The notes beneath the pieces are model-generated. The model ran no database searches, had not been told where the DNA came from, and saw nothing but the letters and a program-made list of their open reading frames with translations. 64,000 bases of DNA, from NCBI GenBank assembly GCA_030668485.1, contig DAOUTW010000004.1, positions 34,660 through 98,659 of the forward strand, written 5' to 3'. The stretch comes from Candidatus Zixiibacteriota bacterium (GTDB lineage: Bacteria > Zixibacteria > MSB-5A5 > GN15 > JAAZOE01). Below are positions 5,082 through 24,475 of this stretch, one piece after another. The translations under genes were made by a program, and so were the position numbers. How positions within the stretch are numbered: the first letter of the stretch is position 1; the number at the start of each line of letters is the position of its first letter.

Positions 5082-6719
5082 ATGAATATAGACAAACAGA
5101 AAATTCGAAATAGAAACCAAAATCGATCGACAGTCGTGTGCCGGAATGGAATCGTTTGCACCAGTCAACCATTAGCCAGTATGGGAGGAGTAGACATCCT
5201 AAAAGCCGGCGGAAATGCCATCGATGCCGCCATCTGTGCCAATGCCATCCTGTGCGTTGTCGAACCGATGAGTTGCGGACCGGGCGGGGATCTTTTTGCC
5301 ATCGTTTGGATTGAAAAAGATAAGAAGCTATACGGACTGAATGCCAGCGGCCGTTCCCCTTACGATTGGACATTATCTGATCTGCAAGCCTTGGGATTGA
5401 CGGAAATTCCAACCTATGGACCACTCTCCTGGAGTGTGCCCGGTTGTGTCAGTGGTTGGGATGCGCTGCGAAACAGATTCGGGACCGCCGGCTTTGACAC
5501 CCTGATGGAAGCCGCGATTGAATATGGGAATGAAGGATTTCCCGTGACGCCAATTATTGCCCGTAGTTGGAATCAAATCGACCCGCACAAGTATCAGTTT
5601 TTGGGCCGGACATTTGCACCCCACGGCAAAATACCTGAATTTGGAGAGATTTTCAAGAATCCGGACATTGCCCGATTCTTTGATATCATTGCCCGCGACG
5701 GCGCCGAATCATTTTATCAGGGAGAAATAGCCGAGAGGATAGTCAAATACTCACAGGCCAACAACGGGCGTTTTTCGATGCGTGACTTTCAGGATCATTC
5801 GGTGGACTGGATCAATCCGGTAAGTTCGAATTACCGGGGCTATGACATCTGGGAACTCCCGCCCAACGGACAGGGAATAGCCGCCTTACAGATTCTGAAC
5901 ATTATTGAAAATTTCGACATGGCGTCGATGGCATCCAATTCCGCAGATCAATTACACCTCTTTATCGAAGCCAAAAAGCTGGCCTATGAGGACCGAGCTG
6001 TATACTACTCGGACATGGGCTTTGCCGAGGTCCCGTTGGAACAATTGATCTCCAAAGAATACGCACAGGCCAGGGCAGGTCTTATCGATCCTCAAAAAGC
6101 ATCCACAAATGTAACCCCCGGAAAGTTGGGCGGGCCATCCGATACCATCTACCTATCCGTAGCCGACAAAGATGGAAACATGATTTCACTTATTCAAAGC
6201 ATCTATCATGGTTTCGGTTCGCAAGAGGTCCCTGATAATCTCGGTTTCGCATTACAAAACAGGGGCCACCTCTTTTCACCAAATCCCAAGGACCTCAATA
6301 AACTGGAACCACATAAACGTCCTTTCAATACCATCATTCCGGGATTTGTGACAAAAGACGGCCAACCGGTATTCTCATTCGGTGTCATGGGCGGCGATTT
6401 TCAACCTCAAGGCCATGCGCAGGTTTTAATGAACATAATCGATTATGGGATGTCACCACAGCAGGCCGGCGAACAGCCACGGGTTGCTCATCTTGAAAGC
6501 TCCACTCCCACCGGGCACAAGATGACCGATTCCGGGTCGGTCGGTTTCGAACGGAACATATCGGAAAAGGTTAAAAGAGAACTCGCCGATAGGGGTCATA
6601 AAATTCTCTCCGATTCCGGAGTCTTTGGTGGTTATCAGGGAATTTGGCGCGAATCAAATCCTCGCCGATATTATGGAGCCTCGGATTCCCGTAAAGACGG
6701 CTGCGCCATCGGTTACTGA
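5082..6719 (+). CDS. Gamma-glutamyltransferase family protein
   Basis: 545 aa; 'GGNAIDAAICANAILCVVEPMSCGPGGDLFAI', nucleophile region 'DTIYLSVADKDGNMISLIQS', 'GGDFQPQGHAQVLMNIIDYGMSPQQA'. Confidence 0.92.
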   Translation: MNIDKQKIRNRNQNRSTVVCRNGIVCTSQPLASMGGVDILKAGGNAIDAAICANAILCVVEPMSCGPGGDLFAIVWIEKDKKLYGLNASGRSPYDWTLSDLQALGLTEIPTYGPLSWSVPGCVSGWDALRNRFGTAGFDTLMEAAIEYGNEGFPVTPIIARSWNQIDPHKYQFLGRTFAPHGKIPEFGEIFKNPDIARFFDIIARDGAESFYQGEIAERIVKYSQANNGRFSMRDFQDHSVDWINPVSSNYRGYDIWELPPNGQGIAALQILNIIENFDMASMASNSADQLHLFIEAKKLAYEDRAVYYSDMGFAEVPLEQLISKEYAQARAGLIDPQKASTNVTPGKLGGPSDTIYLSVADKDGNMISLIQSIYHGFGSQEVPDNLGFALQNRGHLFSPNPKDLNKLEPHKRPFNTIIPGFVTKDGQPVFSFGVMGGDFQPQGHAQVLMNIIDYGMSPQQAGEQPRVAHLESSTPTGHKMTDSGSVGFERNISEKVKRELADRGHKILSDSGVFGGYQGIWRESNPRRYYGASDSRKDGCAIGY

Positions 6720-6815
6720 ATGTCTCGAGCCGGTCTACCACACTTTAGACATCTCAGAGTAAATTGCTTCATCCACTCTGCGAGTGGAGTACAATATGTA
6801 CCGCTTTTATAAATA

Positions 6816-6844
6816 AAAAGACCGGGTAGATTTCCGGCCTTTTC
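6816..6844 (+). terminator. Weak stem-loop with T-run after the GGT gene
   Basis: AAAAAGACCGGGTAGATTTCCGGCCTTTTC, imperfect stem. Confidence 0.5.
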
Positions 6845-6851
6845 TACTATT

Positions 6852-6874
6852 TGGCAGTGGTGCGAGGAATCGAA
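6852..6874 (-). repeat. tRNA-3'-end-like fragment (T-loop plus acceptor-like, ending GCCA)
   Basis: Reverse strand GTTTCGATTCCTCGCACCACTGCCA; 17/23 positions match the tRNA-Glu 3' end at 13189, mostly transitions elsewhere. Confidence 0.5.
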
Positions 6875-7082
6875 ACATTATTACAATATTCAATTCCGAT
6901 AGACCTATACCGGACTCTACGCGTCAAAAGGTGTCAAGAATCAGATGGCTGAATTGGCAAACAAGGGTTAATTGTATTTTACATTGACAAATAAACTGAT
7001 TATTCTTATAATTAAATGTAAATGATAATAGTCTGCATCTGATTTAAACAGTAAAATGTATTTGTCATATGTGGAGGGAATA

Positions 7083-7748
7083 ATGTTTCGTTTAATCGTA
7101 GTCATGTTTGTTGTTATATGGCTTGTCCCTTGTAAGGCGTATACAAGTATTGCGTACATCGATGTACATGTAGTGAATTACTATTTTATTCATCTTACTG
7201 ATTTTCATGTTGGATACGAATCGAATCAAGGACTTGATCGATTAGCGTATGTGCCAAATTATATACGAGGTTTCAATCCCGAACCTGCCCCAACGATTGA
7301 ACCATTAGTGATTACGTGCCCTTCAGATACCCTCATTCCTATTAACTGCCCTGCTCATCCCGATTCGCTGGCTCTATATCCTCTGGTGTTGGGTGGCTGT
7401 ATGGCACAACCTTTCGTAAACTACACCGACGAATTCTTATTGGGCACCATTAGACGAACATGGATCGCCTCGGACACCTGCGAAAATTCGGATACATGCG
7501 TTCAGTATATCGGTCAAGGCCCACCGGGTCTTTGTGGCGTCTGCGGCGATGCCAATGGCGACGGCGATCTCAATGTTGGCGACGTCGTCTTCCTGATATC
7601 GTATATTTTCAAGGGTGGCCCCGCTCCCGATCCTGAGTGTAGGGGCGATGCCAATGGCGACGGTGGCACCAATGTCGGCGATGCTGTTTACCTCATAGCC
7701 TATGTCTTCAAGGGCGGTCCACCACCGGTGGAAGGGTGTTGTCCGTAG
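7083..7748 (+). CDS. Small secreted protein with HYR-like segment and dockerin-like CCP tag
   Basis: GGAGGG upstream of ATG 7083; signal peptide MFRLIVVMFVVIWLVPCKA; C-terminus CGDANGDGDLNVGDVVFLISYIFKGG...GGPPPVEGCCP. Confidence 0.75.
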   Translation: MFRLIVVMFVVIWLVPCKAYTSIAYIDVHVVNYYFIHLTDFHVGYESNQGLDRLAYVPNYIRGFNPEPAPTIEPLVITCPSDTLIPINCPAHPDSLALYPLVLGGCMAQPFVNYTDEFLLGTIRRTWIASDTCENSDTCVQYIGQGPPGLCGVCGDANGDGDLNVGDVVFLISYIFKGGPAPDPECRGDANGDGGTNVGDAVYLIAYVFKGGPPPVEGCCP

Positions 7749-7778
7749 CCATCTGATTCATAATTAATGGACAATAGC

Positions 7779-7805
7779 AAAAGGCCCCGATTCTGGGGCC
7801 TTTTT
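7779..7805 (+). terminator. Rho-independent terminator
   Basis: AAAAGGCCCC-GATTCT-GGGGCCTTTTT. Confidence 0.9.
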
Positions 7806-7812
7806 GCCAATC

Positions 7813-7845
7813 TGGCAGTGGTACACCGCTCCGAACCTCTGTGGA
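7813..7845 (-). repeat. tRNA-3'-end-like repeat, copy 2
   Basis: TGGCAGTGGTACACCGCTCCGAACCTCTGTGGA; near-identical to 10176-10208; reverse strand ends TGTACCACTGCCA. Confidence 0.6.
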
Positions 7846-7995
7846 TGTTGAGAATTCCGAGAATAACAATCCCGTTCAACAGCGAAATTCTTGCAATATG
7901 AGGAGATATTTTACATATTCAAAATACTGAAGGACGAGAGTCCTGGTCTTGAACTTTTATCTACGAAAGCTCGGGTTAGAAGAGAGGATTACATC

Positions 7996-10092
7996 TTGGC
8001 GATAAGAACAGTTTTTGACAAGCTTACGATGGCTTTATTGTTGGCGGTACTGAGCATACCCGTGGTGGCCCAGGACAACCCGTTTCTGGTCACTCCTACA
8101 ACACCGTTCCAGACTCCGCCGTTTGATCAATTTCAGAATGCACATTATTTGCCGGCGGTCCAGGAGGGGATCCGACAGCATCAGGCCGAAATCGATGCCA
8201 TTGTCAAAAATCCTCAGGCCGCGACTTTCGATAATACGATTGTAGCTCTGGACATGGCCGGTCAACTTCTGGATAAGGTGACTTCTGTATTTTACTCGTT
8301 GCTGGGGACCGTCACCAGTCCTGAGATGCAAGACCTCGCTAAACAGATATCGCCGCTTTTGTCGGCCCACCGCGATAACATCTGGCTTAGTGAGAAGTTG
8401 TTCGCCCGGGTGAAGGCCGTTTACGATCAGCGAATTACGCTGGAGCCAACGGAAGATCAGCTCTATCTGCTGGAAAGCTACTATCGAAGGTTTGTGCGGC
8501 GCGGCGCGTTACTGGATGATAAGCAGAAGGCCCGCATGCGTGACATAAACCGCGAACACTCCTTGCTGGGGTTGAAATTCGATGACAACCTGCTGACCGA
8601 AACCAACAATTCATATATCGTGATCGATAACGAAGCCGATCTGGCAGGACTGCCTGAGGGTGTTATTGCCATGGGGGAGGAAACGGCCAATGATATGAGC
8701 CTGCCCGGCAAATGGGTGTTTACTACTCAGCGGCCAAGCGGTAACCCGTTCATGCAGTATGCCGACGCGCGAAATAAACGACAGGCGATCTATGAAGCCT
8801 ATATCAAGCGCGGCAACCGTGACAATGATTTTGACAATAAAGCGATCCTGCAAAAGCTCATGACCCTGAGGGAGGAACGGTGCCGGATGCTGGGTTATCC
8901 GACGCCCGCCGCTTTCTATATGAAATACCGTATGGCCAAGTCTCCTGAAGTTGTCGACTCATTCCTCTGGCGGCTTTGGAAACCGGCGCTGGAGCGGGCC
9001 GGGACAGAATTGACTGAAATGCAGGCCATAATCGACAGCGAACAGGGCGGTTTCAAACTGGCGCCATGGGATTGGCGGTACTATGCCGAAAAGTTGCGCA
9101 AAGCCAAGTATGACCTGAATGATGCGGAGCTCCGTCCCTACTTCAAACTGGAAAATGTCCAAATGGGGGTTTTTGTTCTGGCCGAAAAGCTCTTTGGCCT
9201 CAAATTCGTCGAGCGTACCGACATTCCTGTCTATCACCCCGAGGTGAAAGTATATGAGGTTACGGAGAGTGACGGCCTTCTGCTTGGGATTTTGTACACT
9301 GATTACTTTCCCCGTAACTCCAAACAGGGCGGAGCCTGGTCGGGCGGTTATCGCGACGCCTTCGTACAGAATGGCAAACGCGTCATCCCGCTTTCCACCC
9401 TTGTCTGCAACTTCACCAAACCCACCCCCGGTACGCCGTCACTGCTCAGCATTGGCGAAGTCAAAACACTATTCCATGAATTCGGTCACTGTCTCAACAC
9501 GCTTCTTTCCACAAGCGCCTACCGCGGCGGTTTTGCCCCGCAGGATGTCGTAGAATTGCCGTCTCAGATTATGGAAAACTGGGCCTTGGAACCGGAACTG
9601 CTGAAGATCTATGCTCTGCATTACCAGACCGGCGATGTAATTCCGGCTACGCTGGTTGATAAACTTAAAAACAGCTATTTGTTCAATCAGGGGTTTGCAT
9701 GGGTCGAGTACCTGGCCGCTTGTTTTCTGGACATGGCCTGGCACGGACTGAAGGATGCCAATAATATGAATGTGACTGATTTTGAGGGCAAGACCATGGC
9801 TGCTATCGGCCTGATTCCCGAAATTTCGCCGCGCTACCACTCAACGTATTTCACTCACATCCACGGCGGCTATCAGGCCGGTTACTACAGCTATAGCTGG
9901 GCGGGAGTTCTGGATGCTGATGCTTTTGAAGCGTTCAAAGAGACTTCGCTTTTCAGTAAGAAGACAGCCGCCTCTTTCCGGAAGAACATTCTGGAGAAAC
10001 TCGGGACCGAGGATGCTATGACCCTGTATAAGCGTTTCCGTGGCCGCGAGCCAAAGGTCGAACCATTTCTTGAAAGAAACGGAATGCTATAG
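7996..10092 (+). CDS. M3-family zinc metallopeptidase (oligopeptidase A / peptidyl-dipeptidase Dcp-like), exported
   Basis: 'VKTLFHEFGHCLNTLLS' HExxH motif in M3 context; hydrophobic leader MALLLAVLSIPVVAQ; GAGAGGA before TTG 7996. Confidence 0.88.
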   Translation: MAIRTVFDKLTMALLLAVLSIPVVAQDNPFLVTPTTPFQTPPFDQFQNAHYLPAVQEGIRQHQAEIDAIVKNPQAATFDNTIVALDMAGQLLDKVTSVFYSLLGTVTSPEMQDLAKQISPLLSAHRDNIWLSEKLFARVKAVYDQRITLEPTEDQLYLLESYYRRFVRRGALLDDKQKARMRDINREHSLLGLKFDDNLLTETNNSYIVIDNEADLAGLPEGVIAMGEETANDMSLPGKWVFTTQRPSGNPFMQYADARNKRQAIYEAYIKRGNRDNDFDNKAILQKLMTLREERCRMLGYPTPAAFYMKYRMAKSPEVVDSFLWRLWKPALERAGTELTEMQAIIDSEQGGFKLAPWDWRYYAEKLRKAKYDLNDAELRPYFKLENVQMGVFVLAEKLFGLKFVERTDIPVYHPEVKVYEVTESDGLLLGILYTDYFPRNSKQGGAWSGGYRDAFVQNGKRVIPLSTLVCNFTKPTPGTPSLLSIGEVKTLFHEFGHCLNTLLSTSAYRGGFAPQDVVELPSQIMENWALEPELLKIYALHYQTGDVIPATLVDKLKNSYLFNQGFAWVEYLAACFLDMAWHGLKDANNMNVTDFEGKTMAAIGLIPEISPRYHSTYFTHIHGGYQAGYYSYSWAGVLDADAFEAFKETSLFSKKTAASFRKNILEKLGTEDAMTLYKRFRGREPKVEPFLERNGML

Positions 10093-10141
10093 GGCTGGCA
10101 GATAGGTATTGCCTTTAACCAAAAATTCTTAACAGATAACA

Positions 10142-10169
10142 AAAAGGCCGGATATCTAACCGGCCTTTT
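10142..10169 (+). terminator. Rho-independent terminator
   Basis: AAAAGGCCGG-ATATCTAA-CCGGCCTTTT. Confidence 0.9.
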
Positions 10170-10175
10170 CACATT

Positions 10176-10208
10176 TGGCAGCGGTACGCCGATTCCAACC
10201 TCTATGGA
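10176..10208 (-). repeat. tRNA-3'-end-like repeat, copy 3
   Basis: TGGCAGCGGTACGCCGATTCCAACCTCTATGGA; reverse strand ends CGTACCGCTGCCA and shares CGTACCGCT with tRNA-Glu. Confidence 0.6.
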
Positions 10209-10457
10209 AGCTATCAGTGCCGATTAATATATCGTTTTCGTGCACAAAAACAGGGCATTCGAGAACTGGGTAATCACCCACACAACCCTGAAAATTGTTA
10301 GGGTAGCTTGGGTAGTGTATATATGGTGGGTATTTTTTGCTTGTATAGGGTTGTTTAGCCCATATATTATAATTAGTGGCTTCTTTGCATGAGTACTATC
10401 CGCAACCCAGAATTATGTATCTGTTTAATGTTAATTTAGCTTATCCGGGAGGGGATC

Positions 10458-13121
10458 ATGAAGTATTCCATAATTCTTGGTATATGGATGGCAATATTGT
10501 GGACAATCCCGGGTTTTGCTCAGGATTCACTCCAAATTGTCACCTTATCACCCCCGCAGTATGATTTGGATGTACCGGCAAGCTCCAATATTATAGTAAC
10601 ATTCAACGCTGACATCAATGAAACGACAATTAATGAAAACACCTTTGTTGTCAATGGAGCCATGACGGGACGCACCCCGGGAATGGTCAGCTATAATGAT
10701 ATTCAAAAGACAGCTACATTCTATCCGAGCGCTGATTTCGCCGTTGGGGAGGTTGTTTTGGTCAGTTTGTCTTCAGCCATTATGTCGCTTGACGGAGCAA
10801 ATCTGGAAAACGGTTTCACATGGTCATTTACAATCGGGGTCAGCAACGAAAGCCCGGGTACTTTCTTCCTCGATTCAATTTACCGTCTCGGCGGATCATA
10901 TCCGGTATCGGTGCAGGCCGTGAATATAAACGGAGATGCATACCTTGACATTGTTTTGGTATGCCAATATGCCGATTCGATTAAGTACTTTCTGAATAAC
11001 GGTGAAGGCAAATTTACAGAGCAGCATGGCTTTTGGATCGGTTTGAATCCGGTCAGTGTATTCCCTGCCGATCTTGATGGAGACAACAATATCGACCTTG
11101 CAGTAGCTAATGTTGAATCTGACAACCTAGTTGTCCTCCTCAACGACGGTATGTCCGGTTTTATCCGTGATACATCTTATATCACCGGCGATGGCGCCCA
11201 TTTCGTATGTGGCGGAGACTTTGACGCCGATACCGACATCGATCTTGCCGTCATCAACAGTCTTTCCAATAATATCGCCATCCTGTCAAATGACGGTTCC
11301 GGCGCCTTCGTTATCTCATCCACCTTCGCCACCGATATCGATCCGCAATCGATATGTGCGGCCGATCTCGACAATGACGGCGATATTGATCTGGCCAATT
11401 CAAACAACGGGTCAGGCACGATTACGGTCTATCACAATGAAGGCGGCGGCACGTTTTCGACACCGTCGACTTATCCGATAGGCAACTCGCCACGCATCAT
11501 AATGGCTGCCGACCTTGACGGCGATGGCGATGCGGACCTCGCCTGCGCCAATAATCATTTTGATTACAACAGCATATCAATTCTTAAAAATAACGGCGAC
11601 GGAACCTTCGCCGATCATATAGAATATAATGCCGGTTCACACCCTTTTTGCGTATCCGGAGGGGATCTTGACGGCGATGGCGATATCGACCTGCTCACAG
11701 GAAGTTGGGGTACCAACGGCCTACAGATTCATTTTAATGACGGGAGTGGCGTATTTGATTCCACGATAGGTATACGTAATGGGGGCTATAATTCTATATT
11801 TGCTGCCGATCTTACCGGAACCGGAACGCTTGATCTGGCCGTCACTTATGTCAATGCTCTTCATAACCTGTCCATCTTCTATAATCGTGAGTACCGGTGT
11901 GTTGATTCCGATGAAGATGGATTTGGTGATCCCGGTTATCCGGACAATGAATGCGAACTCGATAACTGCCCCTATGCGTATAATCCGAGCCAAGAGGATT
12001 TCGATTCGGATGGTATGGGCGATTCCTGCGACACCGATTATGATGGCGATGATGTAGATAATTCCATAGATAATTGTCTGTTCTTATTCAATCCGGATCA
12101 GGCCGATTCAAACGGCGACGGTATCGGCGACGCCTGCGACTATGATCTGGATTGGGACGGCGTCCCCAATGAAGAGGACAATTGCGTTCTTGAATATAAT
12201 CCGGACCAGACCGACCTTGACAAAAACAACCAGGGCGATTCCTGTGATGTGGATATGGACGGGGATGGCTTAACCAATGATATCGATAACTGCGTGTATA
12301 ATTTCAATCCCGACCAGGCCGATTCTAATAGCGACGGTACCGGCGATGTCTGCGATATGCCGATGCAGGTGGGCATGAGAGTTGCGGAATTTGACCAAAC
12401 GGCGATAGTAGATACCCTGTATGTCGGCGGGGAATACGAATTTCAGATACTAATTGAGAACGAGCCATTTGTCTCGATGTTGCTTTATTTCCGCATTTGG
12501 TCGGATGATGGGACCGTCTGGTCATGGATTAGTCGAGCCGGTGGTAATATGTATTTCTACGATGGTATCGCGGCTGTCACGGACGTCGAGGGCAGTCGGA
12601 TATATCCCATGAATGACGTCTTCGAAGATCGTGCCGAGGTAAAGGAGTACAGTTTCGATGGCATCTCACCCGACACCCTGAATATTAATGGAGTGTCGTG
12701 GTTCGGCCTCGGTATGCCACCCGGGAGATTGGAACACGTCCTTTCCATACATTTCACCGTTTCTCACATAACGGATCCGGATGGGGTAGGCACGATCTGC
12801 ATAGATACGGTCTATTCTCCGCCCTTCGAGCGTGTGTGGTTTGAAACACACTACCCGACGCCCAGCTTAATACCGAACATCCTTATTCCGGAAGGCGGCT
12901 TGTGTTTACCGGTCACTTATGTATGCGGCGACGCCAATTCTGATGCCGAAACCAATATCGGGGATGCCGTATTCATTATTAATTATGTTTTTAACAATGG
13001 AGATGCGCCCGCCCAGCCACAGGCCGCGGATGCCAACTGCGATGGCGACATCAATGTGGGCGACGCGGTCTATCTGATTGCCTACGTATTCAAGGGTGGC
13101 CCTGAACCCTGCTGCCCGTGA
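10458..13121 (+). CDS. Large secreted protein: Ig-like N-terminal domain, FG-GAP/VCBS repeats, thrombospondin type-3 repeats, dockerin-like CCP tag
   Basis: Repeats such as 'AADLDGDGDADLACAN', 'DNCPYAYNPSQEDFDSDGMGDSCD'; C-terminus CGDANSDAETNIGDAVFIINYVF...GGPEPCCP. Confidence 0.87.
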   Translation: MKYSIILGIWMAILWTIPGFAQDSLQIVTLSPPQYDLDVPASSNIIVTFNADINETTINENTFVVNGAMTGRTPGMVSYNDIQKTATFYPSADFAVGEVVLVSLSSAIMSLDGANLENGFTWSFTIGVSNESPGTFFLDSIYRLGGSYPVSVQAVNINGDAYLDIVLVCQYADSIKYFLNNGEGKFTEQHGFWIGLNPVSVFPADLDGDNNIDLAVANVESDNLVVLLNDGMSGFIRDTSYITGDGAHFVCGGDFDADTDIDLAVINSLSNNIAILSNDGSGAFVISSTFATDIDPQSICAADLDNDGDIDLANSNNGSGTITVYHNEGGGTFSTPSTYPIGNSPRIIMAADLDGDGDADLACANNHFDYNSISILKNNGDGTFADHIEYNAGSHPFCVSGGDLDGDGDIDLLTGSWGTNGLQIHFNDGSGVFDSTIGIRNGGYNSIFAADLTGTGTLDLAVTYVNALHNLSIFYNREYRCVDSDEDGFGDPGYPDNECELDNCPYAYNPSQEDFDSDGMGDSCDTDYDGDDVDNSIDNCLFLFNPDQADSNGDGIGDACDYDLDWDGVPNEEDNCVLEYNPDQTDLDKNNQGDSCDVDMDGDGLTNDIDNCVYNFNPDQADSNSDGTGDVCDMPMQVGMRVAEFDQTAIVDTLYVGGEYEFQILIENEPFVSMLLYFRIWSDDGTVWSWISRAGGNMYFYDGIAAVTDVEGSRIYPMNDVFEDRAEVKEYSFDGISPDTLNINGVSWFGLGMPPGRLEHVLSIHFTVSHITDPDGVGTICIDTVYSPPFERVWFETHYPTPSLIPNILIPEGGLCLPVTYVCGDANSDAETNIGDAVFIINYVFNNGDAPAQPQAADANCDGDINVGDAVYLIAYVFKGGPEPCCP

Positions 13122-13151
13122 TTCTCCAAGATACAATTTTAATATGGCAGA

Positions 13152-13175
13152 AAGGCCGGTGATGTCACCGGCCTT
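13152..13175. terminator. Likely bidirectional terminator between the dockerin gene and tRNA-Glu
   Basis: AAGGCCGGTGA-TG-TCACCGGCCTT, 11-bp perfect stem. Confidence 0.75.
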
Positions 13176-13188
13176 CCTGCCAAGAATG

Positions 13189-13260
13189 TAGCGGTACGGG
13201 GAATTGAACCCCGGTTTGATGGCTGAGAACCACCCGTCCTAACCACTAGACGATACCGCC
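13189..13260 (-). tRNA. tRNA-Glu (anticodon CTC), CCA not encoded
   Basis: Reverse strand GGCGGTATCGTCTAGTGGTTAGGACGGGTGGTTCTCAGCCATCAAACCGGGGTTCAATTCCCCGTACCGCTA folds as a cloverleaf; anticodon loop TTCTCAG; Glu-type D arm. Confidence 0.95.
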
Positions 13261-13309
13261 ATAAATTTTTTCGCCCGGACTAAAAAGCCCGGGCATAACC
13301 CTCAATGCA

Positions 13310-13330
13310 GAGTTCACACACCATCAACCA
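13310..13330 (+). repeat. 21-bp direct repeat, copy A
   Basis: GAGTTCACACACCATCAACCA, identical to 24763-24783. Confidence 0.95.
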
Positions 13331-13347
13331 CACCGAAGGGCACCCTA

Positions 13348-13375
13348 AATATATTAGCATCGCGCCGAATGTCAA
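13348..13375 (-). promoter_or_regulatory. Sigma70-type promoter for tRNA-Glu
   Basis: Reverse strand TTGACA-N16-TATATT, about 88 bp upstream of the tRNA 5' end. Confidence 0.65.
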
Positions 13376-13772
13376 CTATGATATTTAAATTTGAGACAAG
13401 ATTTGAGCTTCTGACGTATGTTTTATTATTCCTGTAAGTTGCTTGTACACAAGAGTTTGTGTTAGGCTAAAAATCGTGGTTAGGTAATGTTTTGATAGGT
13501 ATTGGGTTAACGGCACAAATCAACGGATATTTTAGTAATATTAATTCTGTCGATAGGAAAGACGACAAACAAAATCCTGTATTTGCTTCATTTATGAGCC
13601 CAAATGTGGAATAATCTTTTGAAAATCGGTCCAAGTTCCGTAATATATAGGACTTAAAATATTTGATCGGGCTTATGATAAAACGACATAACAGTCACCG
13701 AAATGCCCGTCGTGAAATGATGGCCTAATAAAGGCGAACAGAAATCGTGAGTATTCCCGTAAAGGATTGCAG

Positions 13773-14693
13773 GTGAAAGAGATAGTTATTGGAACCCGGG
13801 GGTCGCAACTGGCCCTGTGGCAGGCTGAATTCATAACAGCGCAACTGTCGAAAATAACCCCGATACCGGTCAGGCTGGAGATTATAAAGACCCAGGGTGA
13901 TAAAATTCAGCATTTGTCATTCGACAAGTTGGAAGGCAAGGGATTTTTTACCAAAGAACTCGAAGATGCCCTCCTGGAGAGCAATATCGACCTCGCCGTT
14001 CACTCCCTGAAGGACCTGATGACCACTATGCCGGATGGATTAACTCTGGCGGCGACCGGCTTTCGTGAAGATAACCGTGAAGCGGTGTTGATCAGGAAAG
14101 AATCGTTCGATCCCGGCCAGCCTTTGAAGGTAAAAAGGGGTGGAATAATCGGCAGTTCATCGGTGCGCCGGCAGTGTCAAATAGTCGACTTGTCGCCCGA
14201 TCTGACTATAAAAGATTTGCGGGGCAATGTCCCGACCCGGATCAATAAGCTGAGGGAAGGGCAATATGATGCCATAATCCTGGCTTTTGCCGGTTTGAAA
14301 CGTCTGGAACTCGACCTTTCCGATCTTGAGGTGCAGATTCAGGAATGTGACATATTCCTCCCGGCACCGGGGCAGGGGATTCTGGGGATTCAGACTCGTG
14401 AGGATAATACCGAGGTCAATGAGGTGATTGCGAAGCTTGATGATCCGTCGGCTCGCACCCAAACCGGTTTGGAGCGGGGGCTTTTGGCCCGCTTCGAGGG
14501 CGGATGCCAGCTTCCGCTGGGTGTTTATTCCGAAATAGACGGTGAAAACCTGAGTTTGCATGCGGTGCTCGGATGTCGTCGTGAGGAGCGTTGGGTCGGT
14601 CTGGCGAAGTATTCCGAAAGCGGGATAGAGATCGAACCGATGGTTGAAAATGCGTATAAGAATTTGACGACTCAATGTGAGTCTATGATATAA
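13773..14693 (+). CDS. hemC: Hydroxymethylbilane synthase (porphobilinogen deaminase)
   Basis: 'KEIVIGTRGSQLALWQ', cofactor cysteine motif 'FEGGCQLPLGVY'. AAGGA upstream of GTG 13773; ORF track starts at TTG 13767. Confidence 0.97.
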   Translation: MKEIVIGTRGSQLALWQAEFITAQLSKITPIPVRLEIIKTQGDKIQHLSFDKLEGKGFFTKELEDALLESNIDLAVHSLKDLMTTMPDGLTLAATGFREDNREAVLIRKESFDPGQPLKVKRGGIIGSSSVRRQCQIVDLSPDLTIKDLRGNVPTRINKLREGQYDAIILAFAGLKRLELDLSDLEVQIQECDIFLPAPGQGILGIQTREDNTEVNEVIAKLDDPSARTQTGLERGLLARFEGGCQLPLGVYSEIDGENLSLHAVLGCRREERWVGLAKYSESGIEIEPMVENAYKNLTTQCESMI

Positions 14694-18032: not shown

Positions 18033-19417
18033 AAGAAAAAATAGAAAAAATCGACCGCAGTTTACTGCGGAAGTACGACCGCCCCGGTCCTCGTTATACC
18101 AGTTATCCGACGGTACCGGAATGGTCATCCGATTTCGGTCCTGAAGATTATCGCCAATGTTTGAAACGTCTGGCTACGGAAAAGAAACCGCTCTCGCTAT
18201 ATTTTCATATCCCGTTCTGCAAATCGCGCTGTCTTTATTGCGGATGCACGACGGTGGTGTCGAAAGATTCCAAACGGGCCGAAATTTATATCGATCATCT
18301 TCGTCAAGAGATGGCTCTGGTAGCGGAGCATTTGGCTGACAATAACAGAGTTTTCCAACTGCACTGGGGCGGCGGAACGCCGACTTTTTTGACTCTACCG
18401 CAAATCGAGAAGCTGTTCGGGTCGATCTCGGATTATTTTACATTCGATGACGAGGCGGAAATGGCGATCGAAGTCGATCCCCGGGTAACGACCGTGGAAC
18501 ATCTGGAACTTCTGCGTCGGCTCGGATTCAATCGTATCTCGATGGGGGTGCAGGATTTGACCCCGGTGGTTCAGGAGTTGATCGGTCGCAACCAGACCGC
18601 TGAAGAAACGGTCGACCTTTTTAATCATTGCCGTCGACTGGGATTCTCCGGAATCAATGTCGATCTGATTTACGGCCTTCCGGGTCAGGATGTCAAGAAT
18701 TTTTCGGATACTATCGATGCGGTGATAAAGATAGGCGCCGATCGGGTGGCGGTATACAGTTTTGCTTATTTGCCCGGGGTTAAACCGCATCAGAAACATA
18801 TTCCCCCGGAAACTTTACCGTCGATGACGGACAAGTATGATCTCTTCGCCACGGCGGTTGAGAAATTCCTCTCTGAAGGATATGCGCAGATAGGGATGGA
18901 TCACTTTGCCAAACCTGAGGATGAATTGTCGGTGGCTCTGGCCGAGGGGCGTTTGCACCGGAATTTCATGGGGTATACAACCCGCCCTGCAGCCGATTCG
19001 TTGGGGTTCGGGATGTCGTCGATCAGTGAATTATCGGGCGCCTTTGCTCAGAATGTCTCCAAATTGAGCGATTATCAGGATCTGATCTCAAGCGGTGAAC
19101 CGGCTACATTCAGGGGATGTAATCTCACCCGAGACGATCTTATTCGACAGCGCGCCATAATCTCGCTGATGTGCAACTTCACGCTTACTTACGAGGCTAT
19201 GGACCGGGCTTTCGATATCGATTCACGAAAGTATTTTGAACTTGAATTGAACGACCTGAAGCAGTTTATTGACGATGGATTGGCGGAAGTGACGGAGGCC
19301 GGCATCAATGTTTTTCCCCGGGGAAGGCTATTCGTCCGCAATATCGCCATGGTGTTCGATGCTTATTTGCGGGATGAGGGCAATGAAAACCGTCAGGTTT
19401 TTTCTCGCACGATTTAA
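18029..19417 (+). CDS. hemN: Oxygen-independent coproporphyrinogen III oxidase (radical SAM)
   Basis: 'RYTSYPT', 'FHIPFCKSRCLYCGC' (CX3CX2CXC), 'HWGGGTPTFL'; GTG start overlaps the hemE stop. Confidence 0.96.
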   Translation: MKEKIEKIDRSLLRKYDRPGPRYTSYPTVPEWSSDFGPEDYRQCLKRLATEKKPLSLYFHIPFCKSRCLYCGCTTVVSKDSKRAEIYIDHLRQEMALVAEHLADNNRVFQLHWGGGTPTFLTLPQIEKLFGSISDYFTFDDEAEMAIEVDPRVTTVEHLELLRRLGFNRISMGVQDLTPVVQELIGRNQTAEETVDLFNHCRRLGFSGINVDLIYGLPGQDVKNFSDTIDAVIKIGADRVAVYSFAYLPGVKPHQKHIPPETLPSMTDKYDLFATAVEKFLSEGYAQIGMDHFAKPEDELSVALAEGRLHRNFMGYTTRPAADSLGFGMSSISELSGAFAQNVSKLSDYQDLISSGEPATFRGCNLTRDDLIRQRAIISLMCNFTLTYEAMDRAFDIDSRKYFELELNDLKQFIDDGLAEVTEAGINVFPRGRLFVRNIAMVFDAYLRDEGNENRQVFSRTI

Positions 19418-21856: not shown

Positions 21857-22039
21857 TCTCACCGGAATGCCGGTTGTCGGACGGCATTATTCGATATTCA
21901 TGTCGTGTTGGCCTAAAAGCCTCTGATTCCATCCCTGGATGCCAATAATTCGGCCCGACAATTTGAAAAAAACGGCCGTCGGTCTTTACTTTTGGATGGG
22001 GCATTATGTATAATAGTTATACTTATTGGAGGAATTCTC

Positions 22040-24475
22040 ATGTCGCATGCAAAACATAGCCTTGAAGTCGGTGTCGAAGATCTGCAATATCATCTTGATG
22101 AAAAAGAATATTCTAATTCTGTCTTTGAAGATACAGATCCGTGCTGCGGGATTATCGGTCAGAGTCGAGCCATGTCGGCCGTGGAACTGGGACTGGAGAT
22201 AAAGTCACGGGGATACAACATCTTTGTGACCGGGTTGTCAGGTACCGGCCGCACAACAGCGGTCAAGCTACTTCTCGAGGGGGCCCAGGATCGCGAAGAA
22301 CCGAGTCTGAAAGATATTTGCTTTGTCAACAATTTCAAAATGGCCGAATCACCGCGGGTACTGTACTTCCAGGCGGGCGAGGGCCGGAAATTTAAAAAAG
22401 CGATCGGTTATATTATCGATTCGTTGGTGACGGTCATCCCGAAGATATTTTCGGGAGAGAATTACCGGGAGAGGCGTCAGCGGATTATCAAGGAATTTGA
22501 GGCGCGGCAGAAGGATCTTTTCAAGGATTTCGAGACCAAGCTGAAAGAAAAAGGATTTGTCCTGGTTCAACTGCAATTCGGTTCGGCGGTACGACCCGAT
22601 CTGCAGCCGGTGGTTAACGGCGAAGCGGTCGCATTGCATGAACTGGAAAAAACGGTTGAAGAGGAAAAAATGACGCCGGAGGAGTTTGACAAGATCAGGG
22701 TCGAATATGAGGAATTATACAAAGAACTTCAGGCGACATCGAGCGGCAGCCAGAAGATTTCCGGCAAACTCGAAGATGAGTTGCATAAACTGGACACGTC
22801 GATAGTTGTGCCCCTGATCAATGATAAAATCGAAACTTTGAAGAATATTTACGATGATCCGAAGACGCAGAATTATCTGGTCGACCTCAATGAAATTTTG
22901 ATCGAAAAGTTGGATGTTTTCCGTCCCAGCAGTGAGGAAGACGATTCGGATAGGAACGGTTCGACAAGAGTCCGTGGGTTTTTCTCACAGTTTACGGTAA
23001 ACCTTCTGGTTGACAACGGGGGAGTGCGAAAACGACCGATAATCGTCGAAGATTTCCCGACCTATAAAAATCTTTTCGGGACCATCGAGAGGGTATACGA
23101 ACAACCTACCGGGTGGCATTCCGATTTTACTCGTATCGGCAGCGGGTCGATACTCAAGGCCAACGGCGGTTACCTGGTTATCAATGCCATCGATCTCTTT
23201 CGGGATCCGCATGTGTGGCCGACTCTGAAGCGGACCCTGCGTACCGGCAGGCTGTCGATATCCACCATCGATTCCTTTCCGATGGGCGGTACCGGGCTTA
23301 AGCCGGAGCCGGTCAACCTTGATGTCAAAGTTATTCTTATCGGCGAGGGCCGGGTTTATGATACGTTGTTCAGAGCTGACGATGAATTCAAGAAGGTCTT
23401 CAAGATAAAGGCCGAATTCGACAGCGTTATGGAAAATGACCACAGCGGTATCGGCCAGTACACACAATTTGTCAAGAAGATCACGTCGGAAGACAACCTG
23501 CCGCCCTTTAATCATTCCGGTTTGGCCGCCGTTGCCGAGTATGGGGTCAAGCTGTCGGGACGGAGAGACCGCCTGTCCACCAGATTCACCAATATCGCCG
23601 ATCTGGTACGCGAATCGGCCTGGCTGGCAGGGAAAGAGGGAAAAACCGAAGTTGATCGTGAGGCAGTCAAGAAAACTCGAGTGATGCAGATAAACCGTGT
23701 CAATCTGATTGAGACCAAAATTCAGGAGATGTACGAGCGCGATATATATCTGATCGATGTAACCGGCCATAAGGTGGGTATGATCAACGGTCTGTCGGTT
23801 TATGATCTCGGGGAATATGCCTTCGGGCGGCCGACGCGGATCACCGCTTCGCTTTCACCCGGCGCCGACGGGGTTATTAATATCGAGCGAGAGGCGGCCA
23901 TGTCGGGCCGTACGCATGACAAAGGGATCTTGATCCTTTCGGGGTTTATGCGCTATCGATTCGGGCGCAAGCGGCCTCTGGTATTTAGCGCCTCGCTCTG
24001 TTTCGAGCAATCATATGCCGGAGTCGACGGCGATTCGGCATCGTCAACCGAGATTTATGCGCTCCTCTCGGCCTTATCCGGGAAACCGATCAATCAGGCC
24101 CTGGCCGTAACCGGATCGGTTAATCAAAAAGGCGAGATCCAGCCTATCGGCGGTGTTAATGAAAAGATTGAAGGCTACTTCGATGTCTGCATGATCGACG
24201 GTCTCACCGGGGAACAGGGTGTCCTCATTCCTATTCAGAATAAGCAGGATCTGATGCTCAAAGATGAGGTGGTCAATGCGGTGAAGGCCGGCAAATTTCA
24301 TATTTATGCAGTGAAGCATATCGATGAAGGTCTGGAATTGTTGACCGGCATATCGGCCGGTGAAATGAATGATGACGGATCGTTCCCTGAAGGAAGCATC
24401 AATTATCTCTCGGATAAAAAATTGGAAGAACTGGCCGAAACATGGCGTGAATATCTCACCTACCGCGGTCGATGA
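22040..24475 (+). CDS. LonB-like ATP-dependent protease (AAA plus Lon proteolytic domain)
   Basis: Walker A 'GLSGTGRTT'; Lon Ser motif 'DGDSASSTEIYALLSALS', Lys motif 'GSVNQKGEIQPIGGVNEKIEG'; GGAGG before ATG 22040. Confidence 0.92.
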   Translation: MSHAKHSLEVGVEDLQYHLDEKEYSNSVFEDTDPCCGIIGQSRAMSAVELGLEIKSRGYNIFVTGLSGTGRTTAVKLLLEGAQDREEPSLKDICFVNNFKMAESPRVLYFQAGEGRKFKKAIGYIIDSLVTVIPKIFSGENYRERRQRIIKEFEARQKDLFKDFETKLKEKGFVLVQLQFGSAVRPDLQPVVNGEAVALHELEKTVEEEKMTPEEFDKIRVEYEELYKELQATSSGSQKISGKLEDELHKLDTSIVVPLINDKIETLKNIYDDPKTQNYLVDLNEILIEKLDVFRPSSEEDDSDRNGSTRVRGFFSQFTVNLLVDNGGVRKRPIIVEDFPTYKNLFGTIERVYEQPTGWHSDFTRIGSGSILKANGGYLVINAIDLFRDPHVWPTLKRTLRTGRLSISTIDSFPMGGTGLKPEPVNLDVKVILIGEGRVYDTLFRADDEFKKVFKIKAEFDSVMENDHSGIGQYTQFVKKITSEDNLPPFNHSGLAAVAEYGVKLSGRRDRLSTRFTNIADLVRESAWLAGKEGKTEVDREAVKKTRVMQINRVNLIETKIQEMYERDIYLIDVTGHKVGMINGLSVYDLGEYAFGRPTRITASLSPGADGVINIEREAAMSGRTHDKGILILSGFMRYRFGRKRPLVFSASLCFEQSYAGVDGDSASSTEIYALLSALSGKPINQALAVTGSVNQKGEIQPIGGVNEKIEGYFDVCMIDGLTGEQGVLIPIQNKQDLMLKDEVVNAVKAGKFHIYAVKHIDEGLELLTGISAGEMNDDGSFPEGSINYLSDKKLEELAETWREYLTYRGR

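Follow-up and report, generated by a model that had tools for sequence, protein, structure and literature searches.

Probable serial integration of one-gene units at the 3′ end of a tRNA-Glu(CTC) gene by large serine recombinases in a Zixibacteria genome

We analysed a 64,000-nt stretch of the Candidatus Zixiibacteriota bacterium assembly GCA_030668485.1 (contig DAOUTW010000004.1, positions 34,660 to 98,659; hereafter the window), in which four plus-strand genes are each followed by a terminator hairpin and then by a sequence resembling the 3′ end of a tRNA. Behind the fourth gene this sequence belongs to an intact minus-strand tRNA-Glu(CTC) gene, of which it forms the 3′ end; behind the other three it forms a short repeat, which we call a scar (Table 1). 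The array probably arose when large serine recombinases (LSRs) integrated one unit after another, site-specifically, at the 3′ end of the tRNA gene. The evidence comes from the scars themselves and from a comparison set of 60 genomes, seven of the family and 53 others, that includes the source genome (G000, 4.5 Mb); genome-wide work on G000 consisted of pattern searches and the study of fetched stretches.

The full cores of the scars begin at 6850, 7811 and 10174, all in the orientation of the tRNA and on its 3′ side, in agreement with the first-pass annotation of this DNA. The exact 12-mer TGGCAGYGGTRC is rare, with five copies in 4.5 Mb: three in the array and two within unrelated coding genes that have no terminator. 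Scored against the 29-nt 3′ end of the family tRNA-Glu, the three copies reached 22, 19 and 23, respectively. Three shuffles of 368 kb, used as background, contained 1–4 places scoring ≥19 and at most one scoring ≥20. Because shuffles also reach 19, copy 7811 is marginal when taken alone, and its support comes from the layout and from its match to scar 10174, earlier put at about 33 bp and found here over 33 bp at 82%. The terminators described ahead of each repeat were recovered as well; 1–6 nt separate hairpin and core at all four copies of the window and at the folded copies of three relatives (G001, G002 and G004).

Each scar is composed of ∼13 nt of tRNA 3′ end (CCA plus acceptor stem) followed by a foreign arm. 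In scars 7811 and 10174 the tRNA match stops at about GGTAC, the junction between acceptor stem and T stem, and the sequence beyond is not tRNA. A tRNA covariance model, which had been suggested as a check, gave no match on the remnants at E ≤ 10, since only ∼13 nt of tRNA remain. The stretch formerly read as T-loop-like lacks its T-stem complement, and the right halves of the scars are element arms. Judged by their composition, the repeats are thus hybrid attL-type sites, not degenerate T arms.

In relative G003, the end of an LSR gene (zinc ribbon, 2.7e-13) meets tRNA-Glu(CTC), and the final bases of that gene ahead of the core are CTTCCACAGAGGTTGG. When 15 left arms were compared with 8 right arms, this left arm mirrored the right arms of scars 7811 (18/22) and 10174 (17/22) with no shift. 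A second pair, an LSR relic of G001 and scar 1507 of G004, matched at 17/22 positions about the same centre, the point where acceptor stem and T stem of the tRNA meet. The chance of such mirrored matches is ∼4e-8 to 4e-7 per fixed comparison. Furthermore, the arm motif SAACCTCTRTGGAWG has six occurrences in the family's seven genomes, all of them at such a site, and two in the remaining 53. Arms mirrored in register are the pattern expected of attL and attR of one serine integrase; attB is expected to lie in the tRNA and the acceptor stem to form the middle of attP. Mirroring was found across genomes and within one element, at tRNA-His of G032, and is absent within units that lack an LSR. A search of viral contigs for attP-like patterns returned none.

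As an alternative to serial addition, the first-pass annotation had proposed that a terminator-tRNA module was duplicated, which would require tandem duplication or homologous recombination and no site-specific recombinase. The terminators before the scar and before the tRNA of G004 are indeed identical across the 48 bp compared, and the dockerin ends are homologous, as such a process would leave them. However, no block of this kind is common to the window units, and the right halves of the scars are not tRNA sequence. For scars 7811 and 10174 the mirrored LSR arms contradict duplication, which we regard as very improbable. Serial addition at the tRNA 3′ end, by comparison, is favoured by the relatives, where different genes accompany scars of the same type.

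A strong match to tRNA-Glu(CTC) is present in 48 of the 60 genomes, and presence and absence around it were compared between genera. On the 5′ side, a homologue of the protein encoded at 21992–24475 was found in each of the 15 other genomes of the order for which the region around the tRNA was retrieved; haem genes lie on this side in G001, G002 and G004, as in the window, and G003 and G005 have a different 5′ side. The gene content of the 3′ side differs among G000, G001, G002, G003 and G004: a 702-aa gene and a 196-aa dockerin gene in G001, a 945-aa dockerin gene adjoining suf-like genes in G002, a recombinase gene in G003, and 343-aa and 977-aa dockerin genes in G004. A fixed gene order in relatives, which had been named as the outcome that would speak against unit-wise addition, was thus not seen. 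tRNA-end repeats are present on the 3′ side in two related genera, once in G001 (22/29) and twice in G004 (23/29 and 22/29). The end of an LSR gene abuts tRNA-Glu(CTC) in G003 and G031, and decayed LSR ends lie there in G035 and to the left of the G001 scar. The earlier statement that no integrase is visible therefore holds inside the window array but not in relatives; at other tRNAs of G000, too, an LSR gene stands beside the putative attachment site. The structure and orientation of the sites, the turnover on the 3′ side and the LSR genes abutting tRNA-Glu(CTC) in relatives emerge from the comparison, and we infer that an LSR acted in the source genome.

Elements at tRNA genes usually carry tyrosine integrases (PMC4383910), and the tRNA-Asp locus of G000, with a 54-bp repeat and a 13-kb region, resembles such an island. 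That the window units are decayed islands of this ordinary type is nevertheless improbable: the genes abutting tRNA-Glu are LSR genes, the common core is just ∼13 nt, and the arms are symmetric at ∼9–24 nt from a dinucleotide centre, as LSR sites should show. No tyrosine integrase gene was seen in the bounded units, whose cargo genes match other families.

In the mechanism that we propose for LSR integration, crossover would occur at the acceptor-stem/T-stem boundary of the tRNA. An incoming attP, laid out as left arm, TAGCGGTACGCCGATT and right arm, would supply CCA and acceptor stem, and the tRNA would be rebuilt after every event. The displaced old 3′ end would move left, still joined to the right arm of the element, and persist as a hybrid attL remnant. 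Each unit would arrive with its own terminator, which would also serve the tRNA.

LSR genes also end at other tRNA genes. Both LSR genes of G000 do so, at the 3′ ends of tRNA-Asn (locus L300, contig C129) and tRNA-Gln (L301, C120), each behind a tyrosine recombinase gene. The two loci have a trio in common, consisting of a helix-turn-helix (HTH) protein (∼180 aa), a tyrosine recombinase (∼365 aa) and an LSR (505–530 aa) whose reading frame extends into the tRNA. In relatives, the ends of LSR genes lie at or near tRNA-Asn (G005, G006), Ser (G002), Glu(TTC) (G001), Met (G015, G036), His (G032) and Glu(CTC) (G003, G031, G035). The tRNA-His case is independent: a 10-kb LSR element is delimited by attL at 9259 and the tRNA at 19319 (turned stretch), with a core of 11/12, an arm of 15/22 and the same centre as the tRNA-Glu(CTC) sites. 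On this contig (C26, L363) there are two tandem LSR elements, the outer one visible only as an LSR end to the left of attL.

Among the 40 tRNAs checked, repeats of this type were found in no case on the 5′ side or on the opposite strand. Three further loci of G000 have one on the 3′ side. A tRNA-Tyr 3′-end repeat (16/16) lies 5.8 kb off (L318, C48; turned, 8146 to 13970), and the interval is mainly one gene, which lies on the strand opposite to the window pattern and encodes a 1550-aa protein whose start resembles a signal peptide. The tRNA-Asp repeat mentioned above (L312, C18) is 13 kb away, and a short tRNA-Met (CAT) repeat (L336, C105) is ∼150 bp away.

Several observations weigh against LSR integration as the origin of the array. 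Searches of G000 did not find an LSR for tRNA-Glu(CTC), and the right arm of scar 6850 had no partner among the recombinase arms. The attL sites of the Asn and Gln LSR elements were not found in the available sequence, and the tyrosine recombinase within these elements could be the acting enzyme there. Lastly, the left arms of units without an LSR are terminators and do not mirror the units' own right arms.

Because of these non-mirroring terminators, two readings of the LSR-less units have to be considered, namely that they moved in trans or that they lost their recombinase. Six such units are known from three genera (three in the window, two in G004 and one in G001), with one or two genes each, and their proteins have signal-peptide-like starts, as judged from visual inspection or a simple hydrophobicity count. 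Unit ends recur around different middles; the two G004 units match over 131 bp at 79% and 293 bp at 84%. A conserved module, R1, lies to the right of scar 3 and is common to the two G004 units and to sites with no tRNA nearby, twice on contig C231 of G003 and once on contig C48 of G001. The first C231 copy is joined to non-tRNA sequence with the same centre between A and C, and this junction looks like a secondary target. On C231 (L287/L358), further tandem dockerin genes lie to the left of the off-tRNA units, and a half-T-arm-like sequence of another tRNA (GGGGGGGATTTGAACC) directly follows the gene of the second unit.

The first reading, a sharper form of LSR integration, takes the units as small non-autonomous cassettes (arm plus R1, promoter, gene, terminator and core) that autonomous elements mobilise through their LSRs and that dock mainly at the tRNA. 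The recurrence of recombinase-less units in three genera, the two G004 units with both ends in common around different middles, and the core-R1 junctions away from tRNAs on C231 and C48 argue for it. Yet the left arms are terminators rather than LSR arms, the shared right end is partly just the dockerin coding end, no cargo was observed at two places with identical ends, and the genes neighbouring the C48 site face the opposite way; we therefore hold this reading only tentatively. Its full form, in which tRNA-specific LSR elements act in trans on self-contained one-gene cassettes for secreted proteins, which dock serially at tRNA 3′ ends and secondary sites, is more doubtful. According to the second reading, which is plausible though short of probable, each unit arrived with its own LSR, and the LSR gene and left arm were later deleted, leaving cargo and terminator. 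Decayed LSR ends are indeed present at G001 and G035, and LSR elements, too, end at the tRNA with a hairpin. The deletions, however, would have had to stop near the same spot each time, with the hairpin 1–6 nt from the core, even where no tRNA needs protecting.

Table 1. Features of the array in window coordinates
Feature	Position	Strand	Basis
Gamma-glutamyltranspeptidase gene, left of scar 1	5082–6719	+	PF01019, 3.7e-145
Terminator hairpin preceding scar 1	6816–6843	.	fold
Scar 1: core 6850–6863 and right arm common to G001 scar (63 bp, 78%)	6850–6912	+	sequence comparison
Unit 1 cargo, small secreted dockerin protein	7056–7748	+	PF00404
Terminator hairpin preceding scar 2	7777–7807	.	fold
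Scar 2 (attL-type): core 7811–7824, mirrored LSR arm CGAACCTCTGTGGATG 7832–7847	7811–7847	+	arm comparison, motif search
Unit 2 cargo, M3 peptidase	7891–10092	+	PF01432, 3.3e-119
Bidirectional terminator hairpin preceding scar 3	10142–10169	.	fold
Scar 3 (attL-type): core 10174–10187, mirrored LSR arm CCAACCTCTATGGAAG 10195–10210	10174–10210	+	arm comparison, motif search
Module R1, conserved	10214–10308	+	sequence comparison
Unit 3 cargo, secreted FG-GAP / thrombospondin-3 / dockerin protein	10458–13121	+	domain search
Bidirectional terminator hairpin preceding intact tRNA	13145–13182	.	fold
tRNA-Glu(CTC), putative integration target (attB), now putative tRNA half of attR	13189–13260	−	Rfam 58.7 bits, ARAGORN

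The tRNA-Glu limits differ slightly between programs (13188–13260 in ARAGORN, 13189–13260 in Rfam). CCA is not encoded in this intact gene (window 13184–13189) or in that of G001, and is encoded in the scars and in the tRNA of G002–G005. The gene hemA stands between the tRNA and hemC in G001, G002 and G004 and is missing there in the window (13260–13767); inspection by eye placed a HemA-like gene next to tRNA-Asn on C129 of G000. A promoter scan found a sigma-70-like promoter (12/12) at 6984–7012 for the unit 1 dockerin gene, and the M3 peptidase likely starts at ATG 8029, which would give it a signal peptide. The left boundary of the gamma-glutamyltranspeptidase gene was looked for and not found, and its status as a unit is therefore unsupported. 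We also rejected this gene as mobile cargo: in G001, its relative comes after xanthine-dehydrogenase-like genes next to tRNA-Leu, and no clear scar is visible there. The M3 gene was rejected likewise; its distribution is patchy (8 of 60 genomes, including G000), but in those relatives that were inspected no tRNA or core was found around it. Some weak matches to Rfam sRNA families overlap the terminators; they scored far under the gathering thresholds and were discarded.

The closest described system is that of the ssrA-specific islands of Dehalococcoides (serine recombinase DsiB; PMC3146451), which likewise combine a serine recombinase, a tandem array 3′ of a tRNA-like target and short repeats of the target 3′ end; in the window array, such a repeat is found at the far end of each unit in the same orientation. 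About half of the ssrA islands have no integration module (PMC3146451), similar to the LSR-less units here. They differ in their target (tmRNA), insertion in the T-loop, larger size and six-gene module, whereas the sites described here are tRNA genes with a centre at the acceptor/T-stem boundary and one-gene units of 1–3.5 kb. Tyrosine-integrase elements at tRNA genes (Islander; PMC4383910) similarly rebuild their target, leave a displaced 3′ fragment at the far end and form tandem arrays, but the abutting integrases here are LSRs. Integron cassette arrays and CALINs (PMC11389934) likewise consist of one-gene units in series, which an integrase may move in trans; here, in contrast, the junction consists of a tRNA core and LSR-type arms, and the units have promoter and terminator. 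No attC sites or IntI were noticed by eye, no dedicated search having been made. Tycheposons and additive flexible genomic islands with repeated tRNA-Lys ends (PMC10872708) share cargo beside a tRNA gene and tRNA-end repeats, although tycheposons use the tyrosine recombinase XerD and span 4–200 kb (PMC10872708).

It was stated in 2014 that serine integrases do not specify tRNA genes (PMC4383910), and a review of mobilizable elements assigns tRNA targets to tyrosine recombinases, with site-specific serine recombinases disrupting dispensable genes (PMC5704250). Our literature search, which covered few subscription papers, turned up no description of serine integrases that use many tRNA genes. 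The tRNA genes at which LSR genes end in this lineage are Glu(CTC), Glu(TTC), Asn, Gln, Ser, His and Met, and evidence from two of these supports one crossover position. The sites yield candidate attB/attP pairs at universal essential targets that are directly testable, and the array points to a possible route by which genes for surface proteins may be gained one at a time.

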